Assembly (NCBI GenBank): GCA_016195985.1
Contig: JACPYP010000009.1
Location: 1-64,000, forward strand
DNA length: 64,000 nt
Direction: 5' to 3'
From: Acidobacteriota bacterium
Lineage (GTDB): Bacteria > Acidobacteriota > Holophagae > Holophagales > Holophagaceae
Shown here: positions 32,614 through 63,576 of the stretch, piece by piece
How the letters are laid out: every line of letters starts with the position of its first letter
How positions within the stretch are numbered: position 1 is the first letter of the stretch
Program-made: the position numbers and the translations under genes
Notes under the pieces: model-generated
The model's database searches: none
What the model was told of the DNA's origin: nothing
Seen by the model: only the letters and a program-made list of their open reading frames with translations

Positions 32614-32762
32614 GAACGACTTGACCTCGTTATTCACCCAACCATCATCAATCTCAAGACCCTGCCATGGGCGGACCAAGCCTCTTGGATCCAGGGCATT
32701 CAATCCCTCCGCAGGGCCGGCTTCGCCCTGCCTTCAACCCTTTCCACGAAAGGAAGTGCTCC

Positions 32763-33083
32763 ATGCGGAACACCCTCGGATTTCTCACGATCCTGGCCCT
32801 GGCCGCCGCGCCCCTGGCCGCCGAAGGCGGCAGCGACATCAAGGGCAAATACATCTTCAAGAAGACCTGCAAGACCTGCCACGCCGCCGGAGCCTCCGCC
32901 AAAGAGGTCACGCCCCTCTCCAAAACCCAGGCCCAGTGGAAGGCCTACTTCGCCGCGGCCAAGCACAACGGCGGCAAGGAGCCGCTGGGCAAGCTCCTGA
33001 AGCCGGAACAGGTCAAGGACGTGCAGGCCTTCCTGGTGAACCACGCCTCGGATTCGCCGCAGCCCGAAACCTGCGGCGGCTGA
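32763..33083 (+). CDS. Monohaem cytochrome c
   Basis: A 106-residue exported class I-like cytochrome c: signal peptide, then CKTCH haem-binding motif near residue 35, and a C-terminal helix (LKPEQVKDVQAFLVNHA). The distal ligand is not certain; no Met is present in the expected region, so a His or vacant site is possible. RBS AAAGGAAG lies 7 bases before the ATG. It is the first gene of a run with a porin-like barrel, an octahaem cytochrome and a cytochrome b, and probably shuttles electrons in the periplasm for them. Confidence 0.85.
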   Translation: MRNTLGFLTILALAAAPLAAEGGSDIKGKYIFKKTCKTCHAAGASAKEVTPLSKTQAQWKAYFAAAKHNGGKEPLGKLLKPEQVKDVQAFLVNHASDSPQPETCGG

Positions 33084-33135
33084 TGCCGCGACAGTTCCCC
33101 CCTTCCCCCGCAACGAACCCTCTGGAGACACCCCC

Positions 33136-34863
33136 ATGAACTCCCGCATCATGCTCACCCTCGTGGCCATGCTGGCGCCCGCGGGCCTCAGCGCCCAATC
33201 CAACCAGGATCTGCAGAAGCAGATCGAACAGCTGAAAATCCAACTCAAGGCCGTGGAGGACAAGGCCGCTGCCGCGCAGGAAGTGGACGCCCGCCTGGTG
33301 AAGGTCGAAACCAAGGTGGCCGGCGACAACATCCAGTGGGGCGGCGACCTCCGCACCCGCTTCGAAAGCAGCACCTGGAGTTTCAAGCCCTACCAGCAGT
33401 TCATGGGCTTCGCGCAGGCTGCCGGGGCGCCGGCAGGCGCGCTGCCCCCCGGCTATCCCTATCCCTTCATGGCGCTCACCCAGAACGTGCCCGCCCAGGA
33501 CTGGACCAACTCGGTGCAGTGGTCCACCCGCCTGAGGCTGAGGATGGGCATCACCATCAACGAGCACGCCAAGATCATGGGTCGCCTGACGATGTACAAG
33601 GTGCACGGCGGCGCCGACGTGCCCACCTTCAACGGCTCCCCCAACACCGTGGCCAATTCCTTCAACGACGCGAAGGTTCCGGGCACGGACGTGCTGCGCG
33701 TGGAGCGCGCCAGCCTCGTCTACGACTTCCCCGTGGGCGTCCTGTCCATCGGCCGCCAGAACACCTCGGACGGCCCCCCCTTCGAGGTGCGCGAGGGCGG
33801 CGAGCGCCAGGCCACGCCCCAGGCCCTGGCTGTGAACGCCCTGGTGGACGGCATCGGCTTCAAGTTCCACCTCGACAAGCTGGGCCTGCCCGAGAACACC
33901 CTGCTGGGTCTCTGCTACGGCGTGGGCTATGAGTCCGGCTTCGGCGGCGGCGGCAGCGTCAAGTCCGGCGCCGCGCCCGTGGGCTTCAACTTCACCAATG
34001 TGAACTGGACCGCCCAGGGCCCCAATGCCGCGGCGGCCACCCTGCAGGTGAACAGCATCGGCCCCCTCAAGGACAGCACCGTCCTGGGCGCCATGTACGA
34101 CATGCCCCTGCTCTTCCAGGTGGGCGAGAGCGTCCACAGCGCCAACTTCTACCTGGGCTTCAACCGCTTCGGCAACATGACGGACATCCCCTTCGGCAGC
34201 ACCAACAACTTCCCCGTGCCCGCCATGCCCGGCATGGGCGGCATGCCCTCCATCCAGTACGTGACCGCCACCAACAACCTGGGCGACATGGACCAATGGA
34301 CCGCCACCTGGAAACACAAGATCGGCGACGCCTTCACCTATTTCGCCAGCTACGGCCGCATCAAGAGCAAACCCAATGGCAAGATGAGCCAGTACGGCGC
34401 CTACTGGACGATGCCCCCCGCCATGGGCGGCACCCAGCAGCTGGCGGGCTTCGGCGGCCTGTTGGGCGACGCCAAGAACAGCCAGACGGCCAGCGCCTAT
34501 TACGTGGGCATGCGCTGGGATGCCACCGACAAGCTGGGCTTCGGCGCCGAGTTCAACCATGGCTCGCCCCGCTGGTTCACCTACAGCCCCGCCACGGGCG
34601 AGGCCACGGAAAAGCTGGGCACCCGCGGCGACGTGTGGGAGGGCTACGTCCACTGGCAGTTCGCCAAGAACGCCGCCTTCCGCCTGGGCTACCTCGACTA
34701 CAAGTACAGCCACGCCTTCAGCGGCTGGCACATCAGCCCCGGGGCCTCCATGCCCGGCCAGAGCTGGGAAGACGCCTATGACCTGGCCAAGAACCCGATG
34801 TTGCAGTACGGCTTCCCCGCTGCCGTGAAGAGCACCTACGCCTCCCTCGAAGTGAAGTTCTGA
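33136..34863 (+). CDS. Outer-membrane beta-barrel protein (DUF3373-like porin)
   Basis: A 575-residue exported protein. The signal peptide is followed by a short coiled coil (QDLQKQIEQLKIQLKAVEDK) and then a beta-barrel rich in alternating aromatic strands (WGGDLRTRFESS, STRLRLRMGITINEHAKIMGRL, ASLVYDFPVGVLSIGRQ). It ends in LEVKF, the C-terminal phenylalanine signal for BAM insertion. This layout matches the DUF3373-type porins found near respiratory cytochromes. The two internal Gly/Met-rich loops are unusual. It lies between cytochrome genes and may pass substrate or form a porin-cytochrome complex (inference). Confidence 0.75.
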   Translation: MNSRIMLTLVAMLAPAGLSAQSNQDLQKQIEQLKIQLKAVEDKAAAAQEVDARLVKVETKVAGDNIQWGGDLRTRFESSTWSFKPYQQFMGFAQAAGAPAGALPPGYPYPFMALTQNVPAQDWTNSVQWSTRLRLRMGITINEHAKIMGRLTMYKVHGGADVPTFNGSPNTVANSFNDAKVPGTDVLRVERASLVYDFPVGVLSIGRQNTSDGPPFEVREGGERQATPQALAVNALVDGIGFKFHLDKLGLPENTLLGLCYGVGYESGFGGGGSVKSGAAPVGFNFTNVNWTAQGPNAAAATLQVNSIGPLKDSTVLGAMYDMPLLFQVGESVHSANFYLGFNRFGNMTDIPFGSTNNFPVPAMPGMGGMPSIQYVTATNNLGDMDQWTATWKHKIGDAFTYFASYGRIKSKPNGKMSQYGAYWTMPPAMGGTQQLAGFGGLLGDAKNSQTASAYYVGMRWDATDKLGFGAEFNHGSPRWFTYSPATGEATEKLGTRGDVWEGYVHWQFAKNAAFRLGYLDYKYSHAFSGWHISPGASMPGQSWEDAYDLAKNPMLQYGFPAAVKSTYASLEVKF

Positions 34864-34872
34864 TCTGGCCCC

Positions 34873-34904
34873 GCCCGCAGGCCTCCGGGCCTGCGGGCCG
34901 TTTC
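34873..34904 (+). terminator. Perfect 11-bp hairpin after the porin gene
   Basis: GCCCGCAGGCC and GGCCTGCGGGC pair perfectly around a TCCG loop, followed by CGTTTCG. The T-run is short, so it may be an attenuator or mRNA-stabilising stem rather than a full terminator before the octahaem cytochrome gene. Confidence 0.6.
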
Positions 34905-34942
34905 GACCCGCCGCCCGCGCCATCCCTTCCGCTGGAGCCCGC

Positions 34943-36535
34943 ATGTCCGCCCTCCTTCCCTTTCCATCCAGGCAGCTCCGCCAAGCCTTGACCGGGCTCA
35001 TCGTCTGTTCGCTGCTGCCCCTGATGGCCCAGCAAACGGCGCCCGCGGGCCACGGTTCGTACACGAAACTGCGGGCCGAACGGGGCCAGAGCGCCACCGC
35101 GGACCACAGCAAGTTCAAGGTCCTCCAGGGGCCCTTCAAGGACGGCGACGGCTCCGCCGTCACCCGGGCCTGCCTCAGCTGCCACACCAAGGCGGCGGCC
35201 CAGGTCATGGCCACCAAGCACTGGAACTGGCGGCCCTCGGACAAGAAGCTCGAAGGCTACGGCAAGTCCACGCACCTGGTGAACAACTTCTGCATCTCCA
35301 CCATCGGCGGCAACCAGGAAGCCTGCGCCCGCTGTCACGCGGGCTACGGCATGAAGGACAGCGGCTTCGACTACACCAAGGCCGAGAACGTCGACTGCCT
35401 GGTCTGCCACGACACCACCGGCGACTACGAAAAGATCAAGGGCGGCTATCCCAATCCTGCCGTGCCCCTGGCCGACATCGCGCAGAAAGTGGGACGGCCC
35501 GGCAACCAGAACTGCGGCGTCTGCCACTTCTTCGGCGGCGGCGCCGACGCCACCAAGCACGGCGACCTGGACGACACCATCCTCAAGGCCCCCCGCGCCG
35601 TGGACGTGCACCTGTCGAAGCAGGGCGCGGGCATGGCCTGCACCGACTGCCACCTGTCCCAGGCCCATGAAATCGCGGGCCCCGGCTACATCGAGGCCGC
35701 CGACCGCCGCGAGCAGCCCCGCTTCCCCGGCGAGCCGATGTCCCGGATGTCCTGCGCCGCCTGCCACACCGCCAGCCCGCACGCCTCGTTCGTCCTGAAC
35801 CGGCACTACCGCAAGGTGGCCTGCCAGACCTGCCACATCCCCGCCTTCGCCCGGGGCGGACTGGCCAGCAACCTGTCCTGGACCTGGTCCACCGCAGGCA
35901 AGCTGAAGGAGGGGCGGCCCTACGAGGAACGCGACGCCCAGGGCCTGGAGACCTACAACACCATTCACGGCGACATGGTCTGGGCCAAGGACGTGAAGCC
36001 GGAATACGTCTGGTACGACGGCCACATGGCCTTCACGCGGCTGACGGACACCATCTCCCCCGCCCGCCCCGTGGTGCTGAATCCCCTGCAGGGCTCGTAT
36101 GCCGATCCCGAAGCCAAGATCTGGCCCTTCAAGCGCCACGACGGCGACCAGCCCTTCGATCCGGTCCTGAACCGCTTCATCGCGCCGTGGACCGCCGGGC
36201 CCAAGGGCTCCGGCGCCTACTGGGGCGACTACGACTGGGACCGCGCCATCCGGCTCGGCATGGAGAAGGCGGGCCTGCCCTGGAGCGGAAAATACGACTT
36301 CGTGAAAACCCAGATGTGGTGGCCCATCACCCACATGGTGGCCCCCAAGACGCAGGCTCTCGCCTGCACCGAATGCCATTCCCGCCAGGGCCGTCTGGAC
36401 CGGGTGGCAGGGTTCTACCTGCCTGGGCGGGACCGGGGCGCGGGCGTCGACTTTCTGGGCTGGAGCGCGGTGCTCCTGACCTTCTGCGCGGTGGCCGTGC
36501 ACGGCGCCTTCCGCTTCCTCTCCAGCCGTTCCTAG
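34943..36535 (+). CDS. Octahaem c-type cytochrome (tetrathionate-reductase-like family)
   Basis: A 530-residue cytochrome with a signal peptide and exactly eight CxxCH motifs (starting near residues 77, 128, 152, 191, 233, 271, 294 and 475), plus a C-terminal membrane helix (GWSAVLLTFCAVAVHGAFRF). The NNFCIS segment and haem spacing match the Shewanella octahaem tetrathionate reductase (OTR) family, which also reduces nitrite and hydroxylamine in vitro. No CxxCK haem is seen, unlike the OTR prototype, so the active-site haem may have a different ligand. The next gene is a cytochrome b that could feed it from quinol. Confidence 0.85.
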   Translation: MSALLPFPSRQLRQALTGLIVCSLLPLMAQQTAPAGHGSYTKLRAERGQSATADHSKFKVLQGPFKDGDGSAVTRACLSCHTKAAAQVMATKHWNWRPSDKKLEGYGKSTHLVNNFCISTIGGNQEACARCHAGYGMKDSGFDYTKAENVDCLVCHDTTGDYEKIKGGYPNPAVPLADIAQKVGRPGNQNCGVCHFFGGGADATKHGDLDDTILKAPRAVDVHLSKQGAGMACTDCHLSQAHEIAGPGYIEAADRREQPRFPGEPMSRMSCAACHTASPHASFVLNRHYRKVACQTCHIPAFARGGLASNLSWTWSTAGKLKEGRPYEERDAQGLETYNTIHGDMVWAKDVKPEYVWYDGHMAFTRLTDTISPARPVVLNPLQGSYADPEAKIWPFKRHDGDQPFDPVLNRFIAPWTAGPKGSGAYWGDYDWDRAIRLGMEKAGLPWSGKYDFVKTQMWWPITHMVAPKTQALACTECHSRQGRLDRVAGFYLPGRDRGAGVDFLGWSAVLLTFCAVAVHGAFRFLSSRS

Positions 36536-36544
36536 GAGGCCCGC

Positions 36545-37177
36545 ATGAGCCGCATCGTCCTCTATCCGCTGTTCAACCGTATCTGGCACTGGACCCAGGC
36601 CCTGCTGATCCTCCTGCTGGCGCTCACGGGCTTCGAAGTGCGAGGCACCTTCCGCCTCTTCGGCTACCTCCGCGCCGTGAACCTGCACCACACCTTCGCG
36701 GTGGCCTTGGTGGTGCTCATCCTGTTCGCCATCTTCTGGCACGTGACCACGGGCGAATGGCGCCAGTACATCCCCACCCGCGCCTTCCTCCGCGAGATGG
36801 TGGCCTTCTACCTCACGGGCATCTTCAAGAACGCGCCGCACCCGGTCCGCAAGGAGCGCACGGCCAAGCTGAACCCCCTGCAGCGCCTGGCCTACCTGGG
36901 CTTCAAAGTGCTCATCATCCCTGTGCAGGTCAGCACTGGGGCCCTCTACTTCTTCTACCCCAACTTGAGCGCCTCGGGCTGGCCTCCGTCGTCCCTCTGG
37001 TTCATCGCCGTCCTCCATGTGCTGGGCGCCTTCGGCCTCCTCGCCTTCCTGGTGGGGCATGTCTACCTCACCACGACCGGGCATCGCCCCCTCAGCAACC
37101 TGAAGGCCATGCTGGTCGGCTATGAGGAGGTACACGAAGAGGCCGCTGCATCGGCCTCCGAAGAGCCATCGGCCTAG
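36545..37177 (+). CDS. Membrane cytochrome b (quinol-oxidising anchor)
   Basis: A 210-residue integral protein of the cytochrome b561/NiFe-hydrogenase b-subunit type. Four membrane helices are visible (about 12-30, 47-66, 122-142, 155-177), with histidines placed for two haems: RIWHWTQ, LHHTFAV, FWHVTTG and GHVYLTTTGH. It starts 9 bases after the octahaem cytochrome stop with GGAGG in between, so the pair should form a quinol-to-periplasm electron path. An acidic tail (EEVHEEAAASASEE) ends it. Confidence 0.88.
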   Translation: MSRIVLYPLFNRIWHWTQALLILLLALTGFEVRGTFRLFGYLRAVNLHHTFAVALVVLILFAIFWHVTTGEWRQYIPTRAFLREMVAFYLTGIFKNAPHPVRKERTAKLNPLQRLAYLGFKVLIIPVQVSTGALYFFYPNLSASGWPPSSLWFIAVLHVLGAFGLLAFLVGHVYLTTTGHRPLSNLKAMLVGYEEVHEEAAASASEEPSA

Positions 37178-55751: not shown

Positions 55752-56864
55752 ATGTCCTTGACCGACCGTCTTGACCTTGAGTTGCGGCCGCTGCTCCGGG
55801 CCGGCCTGAGCACCCTGGCCCTGTGCGGGCTGGTGGCCCTGGGCAACCGCGGGGGGCGTTGGCTGGATCCCGCCCTGCTGGGCTACCTCCTGGCCACCCT
55901 CTTCGCCTGTTTCGGCGTGGCGTACCGGTACTTCTCCTGGATCGAGCGGCCCGCCACGCGCATGTACTTCCGGCACACGGTCCAGACGCTGCTTTCGGCC
56001 AGGGCCCTCAAGGCCATCCCCCGCATGGCCCTGCTGGCCCTGGACCAGATGTTCCTCCAGCGCTTCATCGAGAAGCGCTCCCTCCGCCGATGGGGGGCCC
56101 ATGCCCTCCTGGCCTGGGGATGCATGCTCGGCTTCGCCGTGACCATCCCCCTGGTATTCGGATGGGTCCGCTTCACCAGCGAGGGTCTGAATCCCAACCG
56201 CTACCAGGCCTGGGTCTTCGGAGTCCCCGCCGGGGCCTTCCCCCTGGACAGCGCCGCAGCCTTCCTCAGCTTCCACATCCTCGACCTGGCCGCGGTCATG
56301 GTCATCGCCGGATGCGTGCTCAGCCTCATCCGCCGCAAGCAGGACGAGGGCGATACGGCCACCCAGCGAGTGGACCTGGACCTGCTCCCCCTGGTGCTGC
56401 TCATCGCCGTCAGCATGACGGGCCTGCTGCTCACGGCTTCGGAAAAATGGCTCCAGGGCCGCAATTTCGCCACCCTGGCCTTTCTGCACGAGCTGACCGT
56501 GATCCTGCTCCTGCTGGGCCTGCCCTTCGGCAAGCTCTTCCACGTCATCCAGCGTCCTGCCCAGGTGGGCGTCTCGATCTACAAGGCCGAGGGCGAGGCG
56601 GAGGGACGGCTCGCCTGCAAGGGCTGCGGCGCGCCCTTCATCCGCGCCAACCAGCGCCGGGACCTGGGCGCCCTCTGGAAGGAGCTCGACCTGGACGGCG
56701 CCCGCCACGGCCGGGACATCCACCACCTGGATCTCTGCCCCAAGTGCAAGCGGCGCCTGGTCGCCAGGGCCCAGGGCGAGCGGCTGCAGGGCGCCTTCGA
56801 TCCTTTCGCCACGATTCCCGTGCATGCCGAGCCCATCCCCGATCCCACCAGCATGAAGTCCTGA
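55752..56864 (+). CDS. Membrane anchor of the molybdoenzyme complex (NarI-like) with Cys cluster
   Basis: A 370-residue membrane protein with about six helices (near 15-32, 40-60, 117-138, 165-188, 207-226, 238-260). Histidines in [15 protein letters not shown] and KLFHVIQRP are placed to ligate haem b, as in NarI-like quinol oxidases. The C-terminal soluble domain has two cysteine pairs, CKGCG and CPKCKRR, that could bind zinc or an Fe-S cluster. The stop is 7 bases before the catalytic subunit gene. I could not match it to a single named family; an anchor and quinol-oxidising role is inferred. Confidence 0.65.
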
Positions 56865-56871
56865 GGTTGTC

Positions 56872-59133
56872 ATGAGCACCCTTCCCCTTTCCCAGGACCA
56901 GCTCCGCGCCCAGTTCGGCCCCCACCTCAACCTGGCCCCGCCGGGGGGCTGGCTGTCCGATCCCACGCCGGACAAGATCGTCGAGACCCATTGCTGCTTC
57001 TGCGGCCAGCAATGCGGCATCAAGTTGAAGGTGAAGGACAACAAGGTGATCGGCTTCGATCCCTGGGAGGAGTTCCCCTTCAACCAGGGCAAGCTCTGTC
57101 CCAAGGGCGTGAAGCGTTACCTCCAGGGCAACCACCCGGACCGCCTCACCAAGGCCATGAAGCGCACGGAACACGGCTTCGAGCCCATGGACTGGAGCGA
57201 GGCCATGGAGCGCACCGTGGCCGAGATCCAGCGCATCCAACGGACCCACGGCAAGGACGCCATGGCCGTGCTGTCCGGCGTCTCCCTCACCAACGAGAAG
57301 AGCTACCTGGCGGGCAAGTTCGCGCGTCTGGGCCTGCAGACCAAGAACCTCGACTACAACGGCCGTCTCTGCATGGTGAGCGCGGGGGCGGGCAACAAAA
57401 AAGCGTTTGGCGTCGACCGGGCCGCCAATGCCTGGGCCGACATCGAGCTGGCGGATGTCATCTGGGTGGCCGGCTCCAACGTGGCCGAGTGCTCCCCCAT
57501 CACCACGGACTACATCTGGCGGGCCCGGGACCGCGGCGCCCTGCTCATCGTGGTGGATCCGCGCATCACCCCCCTGGCCCGCACCGCGGACCTGGTGCTG
57601 CCCCTGAAGCCCGGCACCGACTCGGCGCTGACCAATGGCATCCTGCACCTGCTCCACAAGTGGAAGCTCATCGACTGGGACTTCGTCAACGAACACACCA
57701 GTGGCTTCGAGGAAACCCTGGAAGCGGTCAAAGACTGCACGCCCCAGTGGACCAGCCAGATCACGGGCCTGCCCGTGGAAGCCATCGAAAAGGCCGCCCG
57801 GATCTGGGGCGAGGCGCGCACCAGTTTCCTGCTCCACGCCCGGGGCATCGAGCACCAGAGCAAGGGCGTGGACAACGTCCTGGGCTGCATCAACATGGTG
57901 CTGGCCACGGGGCGCATCGGCAAACCCGGCTGCGGCTACGCCACCATCACGGGCCAGGGCAACGGCCAGGGGGGCCGCGAGCACGGCCACAAGTGCGACC
58001 AGCTGCCAGGCAACCGCGACATCAGCAACCCCGAGCACCGGAAGTACATCTGCTCCGTGTGGGGCTGCACGGACGAGGAGCTGCCCGGCGTGGGCCAGAG
58101 CGCCCAGGAGATCATGAACGCCATCCACGCCGGCGAGATCAAGGGCCTGCTGCTGCTCTGCTTCAACCCGCTGGTGTCGCTGCCCAACACCGAGTTCACC
58201 CGCGAGGCCCTCAGCAAGCTGGAGTTCTTCGTCTGCCTGGACTTCTTCCTCAGCGAAAGCGCCCAGCACGCCGACATCGTGCTTCCCTCGGCCCTGCACG
58301 AGGAGGATGAGGGCACCTCCACCAGCGCCGAGGGCCGCGTGATCCGCATCCGCAAGGCCGTGGAATGCCCCGGTGATGCCCGCCCTGATTGGCAGATCAT
58401 GGTCGAGCTGGCCAACCGCCTGGGGCAGGGGAAATACTTCGACCATTTCACGAGCCCCGAGGCCATTTTCAACGAGCTGCGCGTGGCGTCGAAGGGCGGC
58501 ACGGCGGACTACGCCGGCATCAGCTACGAGAAGATCGAGAAGAACATGGGCATTTTCTGGCCCTGTCCCACCGAAGACCATCCCGGCACGCCACGGCTCT
58601 TCGAGGACGGGAAATTCTTCCATGCCGACGGCAAGGCCAAGTTCAATCCCACGCCCTACCGGCCGCCCATGGAAGTGGTGGATGAGGACTACCCCATCTG
58701 GCTCACCACGGGCCGCGTGGTCTTCCACTACCTCAGCGGCACCCAGACCCGCCGCATCGGTTTCCTGGTGGAGCAGTGCCCGCACCCCTACCTCGAAATC
58801 CATCCGCGGCTCGCCGAACGCTACGGATTGCAGGAAGGCGATGCCGTGGAAATCACCTCACGGCGCGGCTCCCTGGTGCTGCCGGCCAAGGTGGTGAAGA
58901 CCATCCGCCCCGACACCGTCTTCATCCCCTACCACTGGGCCGGGGCCCTGTCCGCCAACCGGCTCACGGCCCGGCACCTGGATCCGGTCTCCAAGATCCC
59001 CGAGTTCAAGGTGAGCGCCGTGCGGTTGAAGAAGACCACCAAGGACCACTTCTCCCCCGAGCTGGCGGAGCTGCAGCGCATGGCCTTCGAGGCCCGCAGC
59101 GGCCAGACCGACATGCCTGAGCGGGTGTTCTGA
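56872..59133 (+). CDS. Molybdopterin oxidoreductase, assimilatory-nitrate-reductase-like
   Basis: A 753-residue Mo-bisPGD enzyme of the Nas/NarB/Nap/Fdh group. The N-terminal [4Fe-4S] ligands are C41-x2-C44-x3-C48 and C76 (CCFCGQQCG and KLCPKG). The molybdenum ligand is Cys167 in [12 protein letters not shown], as in NasA/NapA. The [21 protein letters not shown] segment resembles nitrate reductases. There is no Tat signal, so the protein is cytoplasmic. The stop overlaps the ferredoxin gene start (TGATG). Nitrate is the best substrate guess; other oxyanions or formate cannot be excluded. Confidence 0.82.
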
Positions 59134-59714
59134 TGGTGCCCCAGGACTACGGCTTTTTCATCGATCCCCAGCGCTGCATCGGCTGCCGCTCCTGCGTGGG
59201 CGCCTGCGCCGAATGCGGCACCCACCGCGGCCGGTCGATGATCCACCTCGATGAGATGGACCGCTTCGATAGCACCCAAACGGTGCCCACGGTCTGCATG
59301 CACTGCGAAGATCCCATCTGCGCCCAGGTATGCCCTTCGGACGCCATCAAGCGCAGCGAGGATGGGGTCGTCCACGCGGCCCAGAAGCCCCGCTGCATCG
59401 GTTGCCAGAACTGCGAGCTGAGCTGTCCCTTCGGCGTGCCCATCGTGTTCTCGGGCCTGGAACAAATGCTCAAGTGCGACCTCTGCTACGACCGAACGTC
59501 CGTGGGCCACAAGCCCATGTGCGCCACGGTCTGCCCCAGCCAGGCCCTGCTCTTCGTGCGCAAGGACGAGATCGCGGGCCTGCGGAAGAACAAGCCCCTG
59601 CGCGACTTCCTCATCGGCACCATCCGGGTGAAGACCAAGAACGCCATCATGGTGCCCGACCCGGAAACGCCCCTGCATTTGGACGCGGCCCTTCTCATTG
59701 ACGGAGGCTTCTGA
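59133..59714 (+). CDS. Four-cluster ferredoxin subunit (NrfC/DmsB type)
   Basis: A 193-residue electron-transfer subunit with four groups of cysteines for [4Fe-4S] clusters: CIGCRSCVGACAECG, CMHCEDPICAQVCP, CIGCQNCELSCP and CDLCYDRTSVGHKPMCATVCP. This is the DmsB/NrfC/PhsB pattern of molybdoenzyme partners. It has no signal peptide, in line with a cytoplasmic catalytic subunit. It is coupled on both sides by one-base overlaps (TGATG) with the catalytic and Rieske genes. Confidence 0.92.
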   Translation: MVPQDYGFFIDPQRCIGCRSCVGACAECGTHRGRSMIHLDEMDRFDSTQTVPTVCMHCEDPICAQVCPSDAIKRSEDGVVHAAQKPRCIGCQNCELSCPFGVPIVFSGLEQMLKCDLCYDRTSVGHKPMCATVCPSQALLFVRKDEIAGLRKNKPLRDFLIGTIRVKTKNAIMVPDPETPLHLDAALLIDGGF

Positions 59715-60274
59715 TGACCTGGTGGCGCCGCGCCTTCCCCCTCGAACTGGCCGAAGAGGGCCATTTCTCCCGCCGCGAATTCGCCCGTTTCCTGGCCCTG
59801 GTCAGCGCGGGCTTCACCACGGGCATCGGCCTTCTCTGGCTGCGGAAGAAACCCCTCGAAGGGGCCCCCGATCCCGAATCCGGGCCCACCGGCCATCCGG
59901 TCGCCCTGGGCCTGGCGGCGGACCTGCGGCCCGGCCAGAGCCGCCTCTTCAAATACCGCGACGCCCATGACGCCTGCATCCTCCTGCGCACCGGGAAGGG
60001 CGAACTGAAGGCCTACCGGCAGACCTGCACCCACCTCGGATGCGCCGTGCGCTATTCGGAGGGGCGCCTGGAATGCCCCTGCCACATGGGCTATTTCGAA
60101 ACCGACCGGGGCTTCCCCGTGCAGGGCCCGCCCACCCGGCCCCTGTCCGCCATCGCCCTGGAAGAGCGGCCCGACGGCACCCTCTGGGCCGTGGGCGAGC
60201 TGCCCAAGCCCGCGCTGGAGAACCTCGGCCCCCGGGCGGGCTGCGTCCGGGAGTCCACGGAGGCCCAGGCATGA
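59714..60274 (+). CDS. Rieske [2Fe-2S] protein with Tat-type N-terminus
   Basis: A 186-residue Rieske protein. Cluster motifs are C105-T-H107-L-G-C110 and C121-P-C123-H124. The N-terminus has SRREFARFL followed by a hydrophobic helix (ALVSAGFTTGIGLLWL), a Tat-like signal anchor as in Rieske proteins of bc1 complexes. Here it is in a molybdoenzyme operon without bc1 partners. It may link the membrane anchor to the ferredoxin subunit or take electrons from quinol. The stop overlaps the next start (ATGA). Confidence 0.88.
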   Translation: MTWWRRAFPLELAEEGHFSRREFARFLALVSAGFTTGIGLLWLRKKPLEGAPDPESGPTGHPVALGLAADLRPGQSRLFKYRDAHDACILLRTGKGELKAYRQTCTHLGCAVRYSEGRLECPCHMGYFETDRGFPVQGPPTRPLSAIALEERPDGTLWAVGELPKPALENLGPRAGCVRESTEAQA

Positions 60275-60492
60275 ACACGCCCGTCCGCATCTCCCCGGCC
60301 GTGCTGGGCGTCATCCTGGTGCTGCTCGTGATCCAGCTCTACCTCTTCGAAACGGTGCTGGGGGCCGTGCTCGACGGCCAGCGCGGGGTCCTGCCCGGCG
60401 CCTTCGGCGTGTCGCTGGCCCTCACCCTCATCGCGCTGTTCCTGGCCTTCCGCAGCACCGTGGAGCACGGCAGGAAGAAGGATGGAGCCTGA
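60271..60492 (+). CDS. Small two-helix membrane protein
   Basis: A 73-residue protein with two membrane segments (about 9-30 and 42-60: AVLGVILVLLVIQLYLF; AFGVSLALTLIALFLAF) and a basic tail. It is translationally coupled to the Rieske gene (ATGA) and is followed without a gap by the HPP-family gene. A role as a small subunit of the membrane complex is likely from position only. No family was recognised. Confidence 0.7.
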   Translation: MNTPVRISPAVLGVILVLLVIQLYLFETVLGAVLDGQRGVLPGAFGVSLALTLIALFLAFRSTVEHGRKKDGA

Positions 60493-61113
60493 ATGACCGA
60501 AGACCGCCGAAAACCCCTGGACCTGCTGGAACCCTCCGTCACCCGCGGCCTGGTGGCCAGGTTCCGCCTCACGGCCCTCCTGGGACGGTTCCCCGAGCGC
60601 CAGCTCTGGGCCGCCTTCATGTTCATCAACGGGCTCTTCAGCATCGGGCTGCTGGCGGGCCTGGCCATGCTCACCCGCACCCCCATGGTGTTCCCCTCCC
60701 TGGGGCCCACGGCCTTCCTGTTCTTCTTCACGCCCACGCTCCCCACCGCCAGCCCCAGGCACACCATCTACGGCCACGTCATCGGCATCCTGTGCGGCTA
60801 CGGCGCGCTCTGGCTCATGGGGCTCCAGCATGCCCCCCCGGCCATGGTGATGGGCGTGGATCCCGCCCGCATCGGCGCCGCGGCCCTGTCCCTGGCCGCC
60901 ACCGGGGCCCTGATGATCCTCTTCAAGGCCGCCCACCCGCCGGCCGGCGCCACCACCCTGATCATCTCCCTGGGCATCATCACGAAGCCCCAGCACTTGG
61001 CCATCATGCTGCTCGCGGTGGCCCTCCTGACGGTCCAGGCCATCATCCTGAACCGCCTCGCGGGCATCGATTATCCGCTCTGGGCCAGACGCGCGGAGAA
61101 GGCCAAAGGCTGA
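60493..61113 (+). CDS. HPP-family membrane protein (putative nitrite transporter)
   Basis: A 206-residue integral protein of the HPP family. The signature PSLGPTAFLFF and the segment AAHPPAGATTLIISLG give the family its name. Four membrane helices are seen (about 52-72, 78-96, 130-150, 165-185). Plant and cyanobacterial HPP proteins transport nitrite. A nitrate reductase-like operon with an HPP gene is therefore a meaningful association: it could move nitrite made by the catalytic subunit. It is the last gene of the operon. Confidence 0.8.
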   Translation: MTEDRRKPLDLLEPSVTRGLVARFRLTALLGRFPERQLWAAFMFINGLFSIGLLAGLAMLTRTPMVFPSLGPTAFLFFFTPTLPTASPRHTIYGHVIGILCGYGALWLMGLQHAPPAMVMGVDPARIGAAALSLAATGALMILFKAAHPPAGATTLIISLGIITKPQHLAIMLLAVALLTVQAIILNRLAGIDYPLWARRAEKAKG

Positions 61114-62477: not shown

Positions 62478-62972
62478 TCAGGAAACGGAGGAGGGACTGC
62501 GGGAGGCCTTGTGCCCCTCGGTGGCCCCAGCCTGGTGCGTGGTGAGGTGAGCCGCCTGATGTTCCGGCGAATCATCCACCAGGGTGTCGAAGGTGACCGT
62601 GGCCAGGTGGCGCTGCAGCAGGTCCGTGGCCTGGCCCCAGGCGCGCTGGACCCTGCATCCCTGGCTGAACACGCAGGGCTTGCCGCCCTCCAGGCAGGCG
62701 TTCAGCACCACGCCCCCCTCCACCGCCTCGAGGATGTCGAGCAGGGAGATGGCCGAGGCCGGCCGGGCGAGGTTGATGCCGCCGCCCGTGCCGCGGGCCG
62801 TCTGAAGAATGCCCGCCTTCACGAGATCGGCCACGATGCGCCGCGTGTAGGGCGCGGGCAGCAGGCGGATCCGGGAGATCTCGGGGATGGTCACCCGCGT
62901 CCCCGCCGGCAGACAGGCCAGGTGCAGCACCAGGCGCGCCGCGTAGTCCGATTGCCGGGAAATGCCGATCAT
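62478..62972 (-). CDS. Rrf2-family Fe-S transcriptional regulator 1
   Basis: A 164-residue Rrf2 regulator: winged helix GISRQSDYAARLVLHLAC, then a DNA-reading helix (TRRIVADLVKAGILQTARGTGGG) and three cysteines, CLEGGKPCVFSQGC, in the usual cluster-binding segment. Such proteins (NsrR, IscR, RsrR type) respond to NO, Fe-S status or redox through an Fe-S cluster. The start at 62972 follows GAGG. A paralogue is 107 bases upstream. Confidence 0.88.
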   Translation of the reverse strand: MIGISRQSDYAARLVLHLACLPAGTRVTIPEISRIRLLPAPYTRRIVADLVKAGILQTARGTGGGINLARPASAISLLDILEAVEGGVVLNACLEGGKPCVFSQGCRVQRAWGQATDLLQRHLATVTFDTLVDDSPEHQAAHLTTHQAGATEGHKASRSPSSVS

Positions 62973-63078
62973 GAAGCCTCGGGGGGTCTGCGAACCAAGA
63001 TGACTGTTTGGGTAACCTTGGTCAATACCCATAGGTCATGAATTTAACGGACCCATTGGGATTATAAGATTCCAGCGT

Positions 63079-63576
63079 TCAGGCCAGGGCGCCCTTGGGC
63101 CCGGCGCAGCCCCGCGCGCCGCGTACGCGGCCGATGGCCTGCACCCGCAGGTGGGCGGGCTGGTGGGCTTCGCTCCGCTGGGCCAGGGCGTCGAAGCGCA
63201 CCGAAGCCAGGTAGCTATCCAGCACGTGGGTGGCCTCCACCCAGATGGACTGCACGGGGCAGGCCGCGGCCAGGGGGCACACCCGCCGGTCGCTCACGCA
63301 GTGGTTCAGCGCCACTCCGCCCTCCATGGCGTGCACCACCTCGCCCAGGGAGATCTCCGCCGCGGGCCGGGCCAGGCGCACGCCTCCGCCCGAGCCCCGC
63401 GAGGTGGCCAGAATGCCGGCCCGCACCAGGTCCCCCACGATGCGCCGCACGAATTCCAAGGGCAGCATGCGGTGCTTGGCGATATCGGCGATGGGCACCT
63501 TCGCTTCAGGCGCCAGACAGGCCAGGTGCAGCACCACCCGGGCCGCGTAATCGGTCTGTCGCGAGATGCCAAGCAT
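63079..63576 (-). CDS. Rrf2-family Fe-S transcriptional regulator 2
   Basis: A 165-residue paralogue of regulator 1, with GISRQTDYAARVVLHLAC and the RRIVGDLVRAGILATSRGSGGG winged helix. The cysteine set CVSDRRVCPLAAAC is spaced much as in NsrR. A basic glycine-rich C-terminal tail is its own addition. The gap between the two genes (62973-63078) is A/T-rich for this window and probably holds a promoter. Targets could include the OmpW and molybdoenzyme genes nearby (inference). Confidence 0.88.
   Translation of the reverse strand: MLGISRQTDYAARVVLHLACLAPEAKVPIADIAKHRMLPLEFVRRIVGDLVRAGILATSRGSGGGVRLARPAAEISLGEVVHAMEGGVALNHCVSDRRVCPLAAACPVQSIWVEATHVLDSYLASVRFDALAQRSEAHQPAHLRVQAIGRVRGARGCAGPKGALA

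Follow-up and report, generated by a model that had tools for sequence, protein, structure and literature searches.

The window analysed here, the first 64,000 nucleotides of contig JACPYP010000009.1 of an Acidobacteriota bacterium of the family Holophagaceae (assembly GCA_016195985.1; 4.26 Mb, 33 contigs, 98% complete), contains a six-gene operon at positions 55752-61113 that probably encodes a membrane-bound menaquinol:nitrate oxidoreductase for anaerobic nitrate respiration, which in this lineage would serve chiefly to initiate nitrate ammonification. The probability of this reading is put at roughly 0.78. The predicted products are, in order, a NarI-like cytochrome b, a molybdenum-bis(pyranopterin guanine dinucleotide) (Mo-bisPGD) catalytic subunit, a ferredoxin subunit, a Rieske protein, a small DUF6755 protein, and an HPP-family membrane protein (Table 1). 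A first-pass annotation of the window had already proposed a membrane-bound quinol-nitrate reductase distinct from Nar, Nap, and classic Nas, and this proposal, in which the activity is a prediction, has passed all the tests run.

The neighbourhood survey suggested at that time was carried out on a collection of 84,980 species genomes, with an alignment that covered diverse homologues as the query. It confirmed at least 561 relatives, and 97 loci were examined in detail, several incomplete ones ending at contig edges. The first five genes form a cassette conserved well above chance expectation: of the 97 loci, all carry the catalytic subunit, 92 the ferredoxin, 91 each the cytochrome b and the Rieske protein, and 90 the DUF6755 protein. 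The sixth slot is variable. The cassette occurs in the Acidobacteriota, Bacteroidota (Flavobacterium, Chitinophaga, Niastella, Cecembia, and Algoriphagus), Deinococcota, where it is found on plasmids, Actinomycetota, Armatimonadota, and Verrucomicrobiota, as well as in metagenome bins of the Omnitrophota. In the Armatimonadota, the gene order is reshuffled, for example, as ferredoxin-Rieske-DUF6755, followed by a transporter, NnrS, and a Crp-type regulator, and then the cytochrome b and catalytic subunit, and the persistence of the same genes despite this reshuffling argues for a functional link that goes beyond synteny. The neighbours that recur across the phyla include NarK, SLAC1, NnrS, the RIC/ScdA repair protein, Crp/Fnr regulators, NirK with a cytochrome c, and molybdenum-cofactor genes. 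At one acidobacterial locus (L055:1113-12573), a NarK-type gene and an HPP gene follow the cassette, and are followed in turn by a second molybdopterin/ferredoxin pair, which is of a different type.

The catalytic subunit belongs to the molybdopterin oxidoreductase families, and has an N-terminal 4Fe-4S motif that includes LCPKG (cysteines Cys41/42, 44, 48, and 76). No twin-arginine translocation (Tat) signal was seen at the N-terminus of its sequence. The best curated model was that of the assimilatory NasC (NF047855), with a score of 834.7 bits, under the cut-off of 1100 for a NasC equivalog. The scores obtained with the models of NapA (TIGR01706; 271.7 bits, cut-off 930.55), AioA (TIGR02693; 173.2 bits, cut-off 359), and NarG (TIGR01580; 63.6 bits, cut-off 1084) also lay below the respective thresholds, as did that of the alpha subunit of formate dehydrogenase (FDH), at 594.7 bits for a cut-off of 666.

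The alignment columns of the active site place a predicted molybdenum ligand at Cys167, followed by Met168, with a threonine at the position of Arg333 of FdhH (Escherichia coli numbering). This combination of Cys-Met and Thr in the cassette enzymes is common to NapA and NasC, whereas FDH has a selenocysteine or cysteine followed by histidine, together with an arginine, and the equivalents of both His141 and Arg333 of FdhH are missing in all the cassette rows shown. The separation from FDH thus also stands in the active site. The cysteine at the ligand position also sets the subunit apart from the AioA type of site, in which the molybdenum has no amino-acid ligand.

The phylogeny of the catalytic subunit, based on 48 sequences, places the cassette enzymes in a single clade (support 100/99), whose nearest relatives are enzymes adjoining nirB or nirBD in the Acidobacteriota, Mycobacterium, and Deinococcus, with the NasC of Paenibacillus nearby. 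The cassette clade is thus sister to NirB-linked NasC, with both the formate dehydrogenases and NapA outside it, although the deeper branching order is unsure, due to long branches. Clustering with the formate dehydrogenases, which had been named beforehand as the outcome that would count against a nitrate reductase, was not seen in the tree, nor was an active site of that type. A formate dehydrogenase-like electron donor complex, which might be suggested by the FDH-alpha score close to its cut-off and by the closest PDB chains to this subunit by sequence, which are FDH-type, is extremely improbable in light of the absent FdhH residues and the position of the clade. One sequence labelled Methanoregulaceae (L064) was placed with the Armatimonadota, and is probably a mis-binned contig.

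The remaining subunits are consistent with the transfer of electrons from a membrane quinol to this enzyme. The third gene encodes 16 cysteines in four groups, each conserved in at least 99% of 113 rows, plus an additional conserved Cys28, which bears out the four-cluster ferredoxin of the first-pass annotation; the 16 cysteines correspond to four [4Fe-4S] clusters, and the nearest named model is DmsB (DMSO_dmsB), below its cut-off. In the case of the cytochrome b, the sequence models indicate a weak nearness to NarI (Nitrate_red_gam, 20.3 bits, cut-off 22.9) and to QmoC, TmcC, and HmcE. The AlphaFold2 model (mean predicted local distance difference test score of 84.8) has six long hydrophobic helices, which are predicted to be transmembrane. 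Foldseek alone recovered no significant match for this model (best E 0.13), and the structural match to NarI comes from a second aligner, which gave Z 10.7 for E. coli NarI (1q16_C; 180 residues, 5.0 Å) and Z 11.1 for the NarI-like part of the mycobacterial EtfD (9ojn; 226 residues, 4.5 Å), values of 10-11 that call for caution in helical bundles, with NarI entries scoring 10 and unrelated rows 7. None of the 113 sequences departs from His117, His246, or His264, and the last two of these lie 18 residues apart, as do His187 and His205 of NarI. The structural match and the histidine pattern together point to a NarI-like di-haem cytochrome b anchor, with the haems being predicted, and both the model and the profile are NarI-like, rather than of the bc1/b6 family.

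The C-terminal CxxC...CxxC tail of this anchor, on the cytoplasmic side, is present in the window and in the Actinomycetota. Over the family as a whole, C289 is found in 100% of the sequences and the other three cysteines in approximately 63%, and a single cysteine is left in Flavobacterium and the Armatimonadota, so that the cluster is not an essential relay, and its role as an obligatory carrier of electrons was rejected. The earlier description of a NarI-like anchor with a C-terminal cysteine cluster is therefore retained for the likeness to NarI and for the cluster of this particular protein, which is dispensable in the family.

The Rieske protein has an Arg-Arg pair (SRREF) followed by a single predicted transmembrane helix, which, together with the Rieske family match, upholds its designation as a Tat-type Rieske protein. 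Its cluster box (CTHLxC...CPCH) is of the bc1 type, that is, the quinol-oxidising kind, with both disulfide cysteines, and is invariant in 110 rows, save three that begin with CPH. The PDB profile matches are to the Rieske proteins of b6f, Thermus, and AioB, and the AlphaFold2 model is closest to AioB (1g8j_D; Z 15.4, 107 residues, 1.6 Å). All 110 sequences have glycine and phenylalanine at the positions of Ser163 and Tyr165 of the bovine bc1 protein, where serine and tyrosine raise the potential, and the potential of this protein may be lowered because of these replacements, which would fit menaquinol. The DUF6755 protein has two hydrophobic stretches and the invariant residues Gln22 and Ser48, and its recurrence (90 of the 97 loci) suggests that it is a constant component of the cassette, as a small membrane subunit. 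No mention of DUF6755 was found in the open-licence literature searched.

Three kinds of protein fill the sixth slot or a position next to the cassette, namely a NarK-type protein of the major facilitator superfamily, an SLAC1-type anion channel, or an HPP protein. The first of these scores best against NarK-family models (TIGR00886 or NarU), below their cut-offs, and at five acidobacterial loci of five families (L160, L163, L166, L168, and L170) NarK is fused in one reading frame to the N-terminus of the cytochrome b. The HPP protein of the window has the motif His148-Pro149-Pro150, which is invariant in 14 rows, and contains the TM_HPP domain; no relative of solved structure was recovered by sequence. 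Members of the HPP family in cyanobacteria and chloroplasts have been shown to transport nitrite (Maeda et al. 2014, cited by PMC7438415).

In the Holophagaceae, all 10 genomes with HPP in the slot lack a NarK match anywhere in the genome (threshold E 1e-20, with HPP being scored only in the cassette slot), whereas the 12 other operon genomes with a call all have two NarK matches each (Fisher p ~1.5e-6, a value which ignores ancestry and counts G036, whose slot is truncated, among the genomes without HPP). Genome G021, which has no NarK and a truncated slot, was left out of this count. For two of the ten HPP genomes (G002 and G032), the presence of HPP was forecast correctly from the absence of NarK before the locus was read, and the states map onto the catalytic-gene tree with at least four changes on well-supported branches. 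The best reading of the sequences is that HPP takes the place of NarK in this lineage as the predicted nitrate/nitrite transporter, given that it replaces NarK in the same slot and that NarK is missing from the HPP genomes. The earlier suggestion that the operon has its own nitrite exporter is supported as regards a transporter role, and HPP may export nitrite, import nitrate, or exchange the two. No NarK was found in four NapA-only Geothrix genomes tested, as expected from the periplasmic location of NapA, and this, together with the NarK/HPP pattern, argues for a cytoplasmic catalytic subunit.

The genomic context bears on whether the enzyme is respiratory or assimilatory. A membrane-bound assimilatory NasC, drawing on quinol electrons for the assimilation of nitrogen, would agree with the NirB/NirBD-linked NasC found as the nearest relatives outside the cassette clade, with the best NCBIfam model, and with the database label. 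However, NirB is absent from 32 of the 34 operon genomes, and the two that have it each possess a second, NirB-linked NasC. The only NIR_SIR gene in the genome of the window was considered and rejected as a nitrite reductase, and its most plausible product is a sulfite reductase, because it lies beside the sulfate-assimilation genes. In addition, NrfA co-occurs with the operon in 19 of the 23 operon-bearing Geothrix genomes. At one acidobacterial locus (L153), the cassette is immediately preceded by nrfH and nrfA in the same orientation and immediately followed by two NarK-type genes, and nrfA is also found beside the cassette in G100. NirK, NnrS, and RIC are further neighbours that speak against assimilation, and an assimilatory role is quite unlikely. 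In six Geothrix genomes with NrfA (G001, G002, G009, G010, G021, and G024), searches for NarG and NapA found neither, and the operon is the only nitrate reductase detected; G002 is rated as 100% complete.

The same neighbours bear on the substrate. The enzymes of the dimethyl sulfoxide reductase family are promiscuous, and the sequence alone cannot give the substrate, which leaves room for the reduction of chlorate, selenate, or iodate, or a reverse reaction, the oxidation of nitrite. The proximity of NarK, NirK, and NrfA, and the NasC/NapA pattern of the active site favour the reduction of nitrate, and make any of these other reactions very improbable.

NapA is present in five of the 23 genomes with the operon, in comparison with 13 of the 20 without it (43 genomes, p = 0.006). 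A strict mutual exclusion, which was indicated by an early Fisher test of 25 genomes (p = 2e-5), weakened in this larger sample, so that the avoidance between the operon and NapA is best described as a tendency. In several Geothrix genomes (G006, G007, G008, G013, G015, and G018; L174-L176 and neighbours), a full-length NarG lies approximately 10-20 kb from the cassette, with two kinds of nitrate reductase in the same genomic region.

The mechanism inferred for the complex, in its substrate, quinone type, electron path, sidedness, haem pairs, and direction of transport, would begin with the oxidation of menaquinol at the outer face of the NarI-like cytochrome b, where the membrane-anchored Rieske protein would assist and accept one or both of its electrons. 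Electrons would pass through the membrane by way of two b haems, and then along the ferredoxin subunit, through its four [4Fe-4S] clusters, to the cytoplasmic Mo-bisPGD subunit, which would reduce nitrate to nitrite, and the DUF6755 protein would be a small structural membrane subunit. The HPP protein, or NarK or SLAC1 in the relatives, would carry nitrate in and/or nitrite out, supplying the periplasmic NrfA, and the constant presence of a transporter would reflect the need to export nitrite from the cytoplasm before NrfA can act on it.

Of all the parts of this scheme, the Rieske step is the most tentative, and may represent a simple relay, a Q-cycle-like splitting of the electrons, or the export of the whole module, as in AioAB. 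In the second case, a low-potential-type Rieske protein and the outer haem would split the electrons of menaquinol, as in cytochrome bc1, which is rather unlikely. If true, nitrate respiration through this complex would conserve more energy than that through NarGHI, and the complex would constitute a distinct bioenergetic class of nitrate reductase in at least six phyla.

In the third case, the molybdenum and ferredoxin subunits would be periplasmic, having been carried across the membrane with the Rieske protein by means of the Tat signal of the latter (hitch-hiking). In AioAB, the Tat signal is found on the Rieske subunit, and there is none on the catalytic subunit. The same distribution of signals in the operon, the closeness of the Rieske model to AioB, and the reported derivation of AioA from the NasC lineage (PMC7331816) are compatible with this arrangement. 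The constant association, and even fusion, of the cassette with nitrate/nitrite transporters would make little sense for a periplasmic enzyme, and the NapA-only genomes tested do without NarK. In addition, NarI holds its ferredoxin partner on the cytoplasmic side, and a periplasmic module is unlikely.

A number of points weigh against a respiratory menaquinol:nitrate oxidoreductase. The sequence similarity of the anchor to NarI is weak and under the Pfam cut-off, and His175, which is likely the second ligand of the outer haem, is mostly conserved, with asparagine or lysine in some lineages (113 sequences). We know of no characterised precedent for the combination of an outer-face Rieske protein with a cytoplasmic active site of the NasC type. 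The NarK/HPP pattern is not free of the effect of ancestry; all four independent pairs fell as expected, a number too small for significance in a sign test (p 0.125). Four of the 23 operon-bearing Geothrix genomes have no detected NrfA, and the operon is not the sole nitrate reductase in the genome of the window, which also carries NapA, immediately beside NrfA (L149, G000:C11, 64411-68510).

Like NarGHI, the operon has a molybdenum subunit with no export signal of its own, a four-cluster ferredoxin, a NarI-like di-haem anchor, as predicted here, and, in most lineages, a NarK partner. It differs in its NasC-type subunit with a cysteine ligand, whereas NarG has an aspartate, in the absence of a NarJ-type chaperone (all six genes belong to other families), and in the additional Rieske and DUF6755 subunits. 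The NirB-linked NasC and NarB, which are the nearest catalytic relatives, share the active-site pattern and the lack of an export signal, but lie beside nirB or nirBD, in place of which the operon has the anchor, ferredoxin, and Rieske genes, with NirB absent from nearly all the genomes. In the haloarchaeal nar operon, narB (Rieske) and narC (cytochrome b) accompany narGH (PMC2483277), which resembles the present arrangement, although NarG is found there with NarH and NarJ, in contrast with the NasC-type subunit and NarI-like cytochrome seen here. The AioAB system also combines a NasC-related molybdenum subunit with a small Rieske subunit, which provides the closest Rieske fold match, but AioA lacks the amino-acid ligand and is periplasmic, and there is no cytochrome b or four-cluster subunit. 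The sixth gene shares the TM_HPP family and the His-Pro-Pro motif (148-150) with the HPP nitrite transporters of cyanobacteria and chloroplasts, and differs in lying within a nitrate-reductase operon, where it stands in for NarK.

The NasC/NapA/AioA clade is said not to be accompanied by a canonical four-cluster ferredoxin or membrane anchor (PMC7331816), and NasC/NasA have been described as enzymes of assimilation exclusively (PMC10100899). The open-licence literature searched contained no account of this complex, and one may have been published elsewhere. In genome surveys, nitrate respiration is assigned by narG and napA, and matches to NasC/NasA are taken as assimilatory. If the reading proposed here is true, a share of the “assimilatory” genes in the genomes of soil, sediment, and wastewater would be respiratory, feeding ammonification or denitrification, and nitrate reducers would be undercounted. 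In a comparative study, some strains of acidobacteria are reported to reduce nitrate even though their genomes yielded nasA genes only (PMC5900883), which the operon could explain, its presence in those strains being conjecture. The HPP proteins, in turn, gain a testable role as a substitute for NarK.

The six genes fill the interval on a single strand. The first junction is a gap of 7 nt, the next two are overlaps of 1 nt each, the fourth is an overlap of 4 nt, and the last has a gap of 0 nt, so that start and stop codons touch or overlap at four of the five. Based on these junctions, the genes appear to be translationally coupled, as the first-pass annotation had stated. The five larger ORFs (open reading frames) have a guanine-cytosine content of 0.89-0.95 at codon position 3, versus 0.44-0.55 at position 2, as expected of coding sequence.

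Table 1. Genes of the predicted nitrate reductase operon, with positions in the window and the evidence for each assignment.
Gene	Predicted product	Position	Strand	Length (aa)	Evidence
1	NarI-like cytochrome b membrane anchor	55752..56864	+	370	ORF; weak Nitrate_red_gam and QmoC/TmcC/HmcE matches; AlphaFold2 model
2	Mo-bisPGD catalytic subunit	56872..59133	+	753	ORF; PF00384, PF01568, PF04879; NasC model; tree; active-site columns
3	DmsB/NarH-like ferredoxin subunit	59133..59714	+	193	ORF; Fer4 families; DMSO_dmsB below cut-off
4	Membrane-anchored Rieske [2Fe-2S] protein	59714..60274	+	186	PF00355; motif; PDB profile matches; AlphaFold2 model
5	DUF6755 protein	60271..60492	+	73	PF20540, 28.5 bits (cut-off 27)
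6	HPP-family membrane protein, predicted nitrate/nitrite transporter	60493..61113	+	206	PF04982, 85.2 bits (cut-off 27.2)

Among the matches listed, the operon is closest, of the named organisms, to those of Geothrix species (Holophagaceae, Acidobacteriota), with the catalytic subunit being 93-94% identical, and up to 96% in other genomes of the same genus. An FNR-like site (TTGATCCACGTCAC) approximately 160 bp upstream of the operon was considered as a regulatory feature, although other Geothrix operons do not have it upstream, and no claim is made for it. Just downstream, at 62481-63576 on the minus strand, lie two adjacent regulators of the Rrf2 family, which includes NsrR, a sensor of nitrite and nitric oxide. 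Elsewhere in the window, a row of genes at 32667-37174 (plus strand) encodes a small c-type cytochrome, a DUF3373 protein, a multihaem cytochrome (PF11783), and a cytochrome b561, which is possibly a separate multihaem/outer-membrane electron-transfer cluster.

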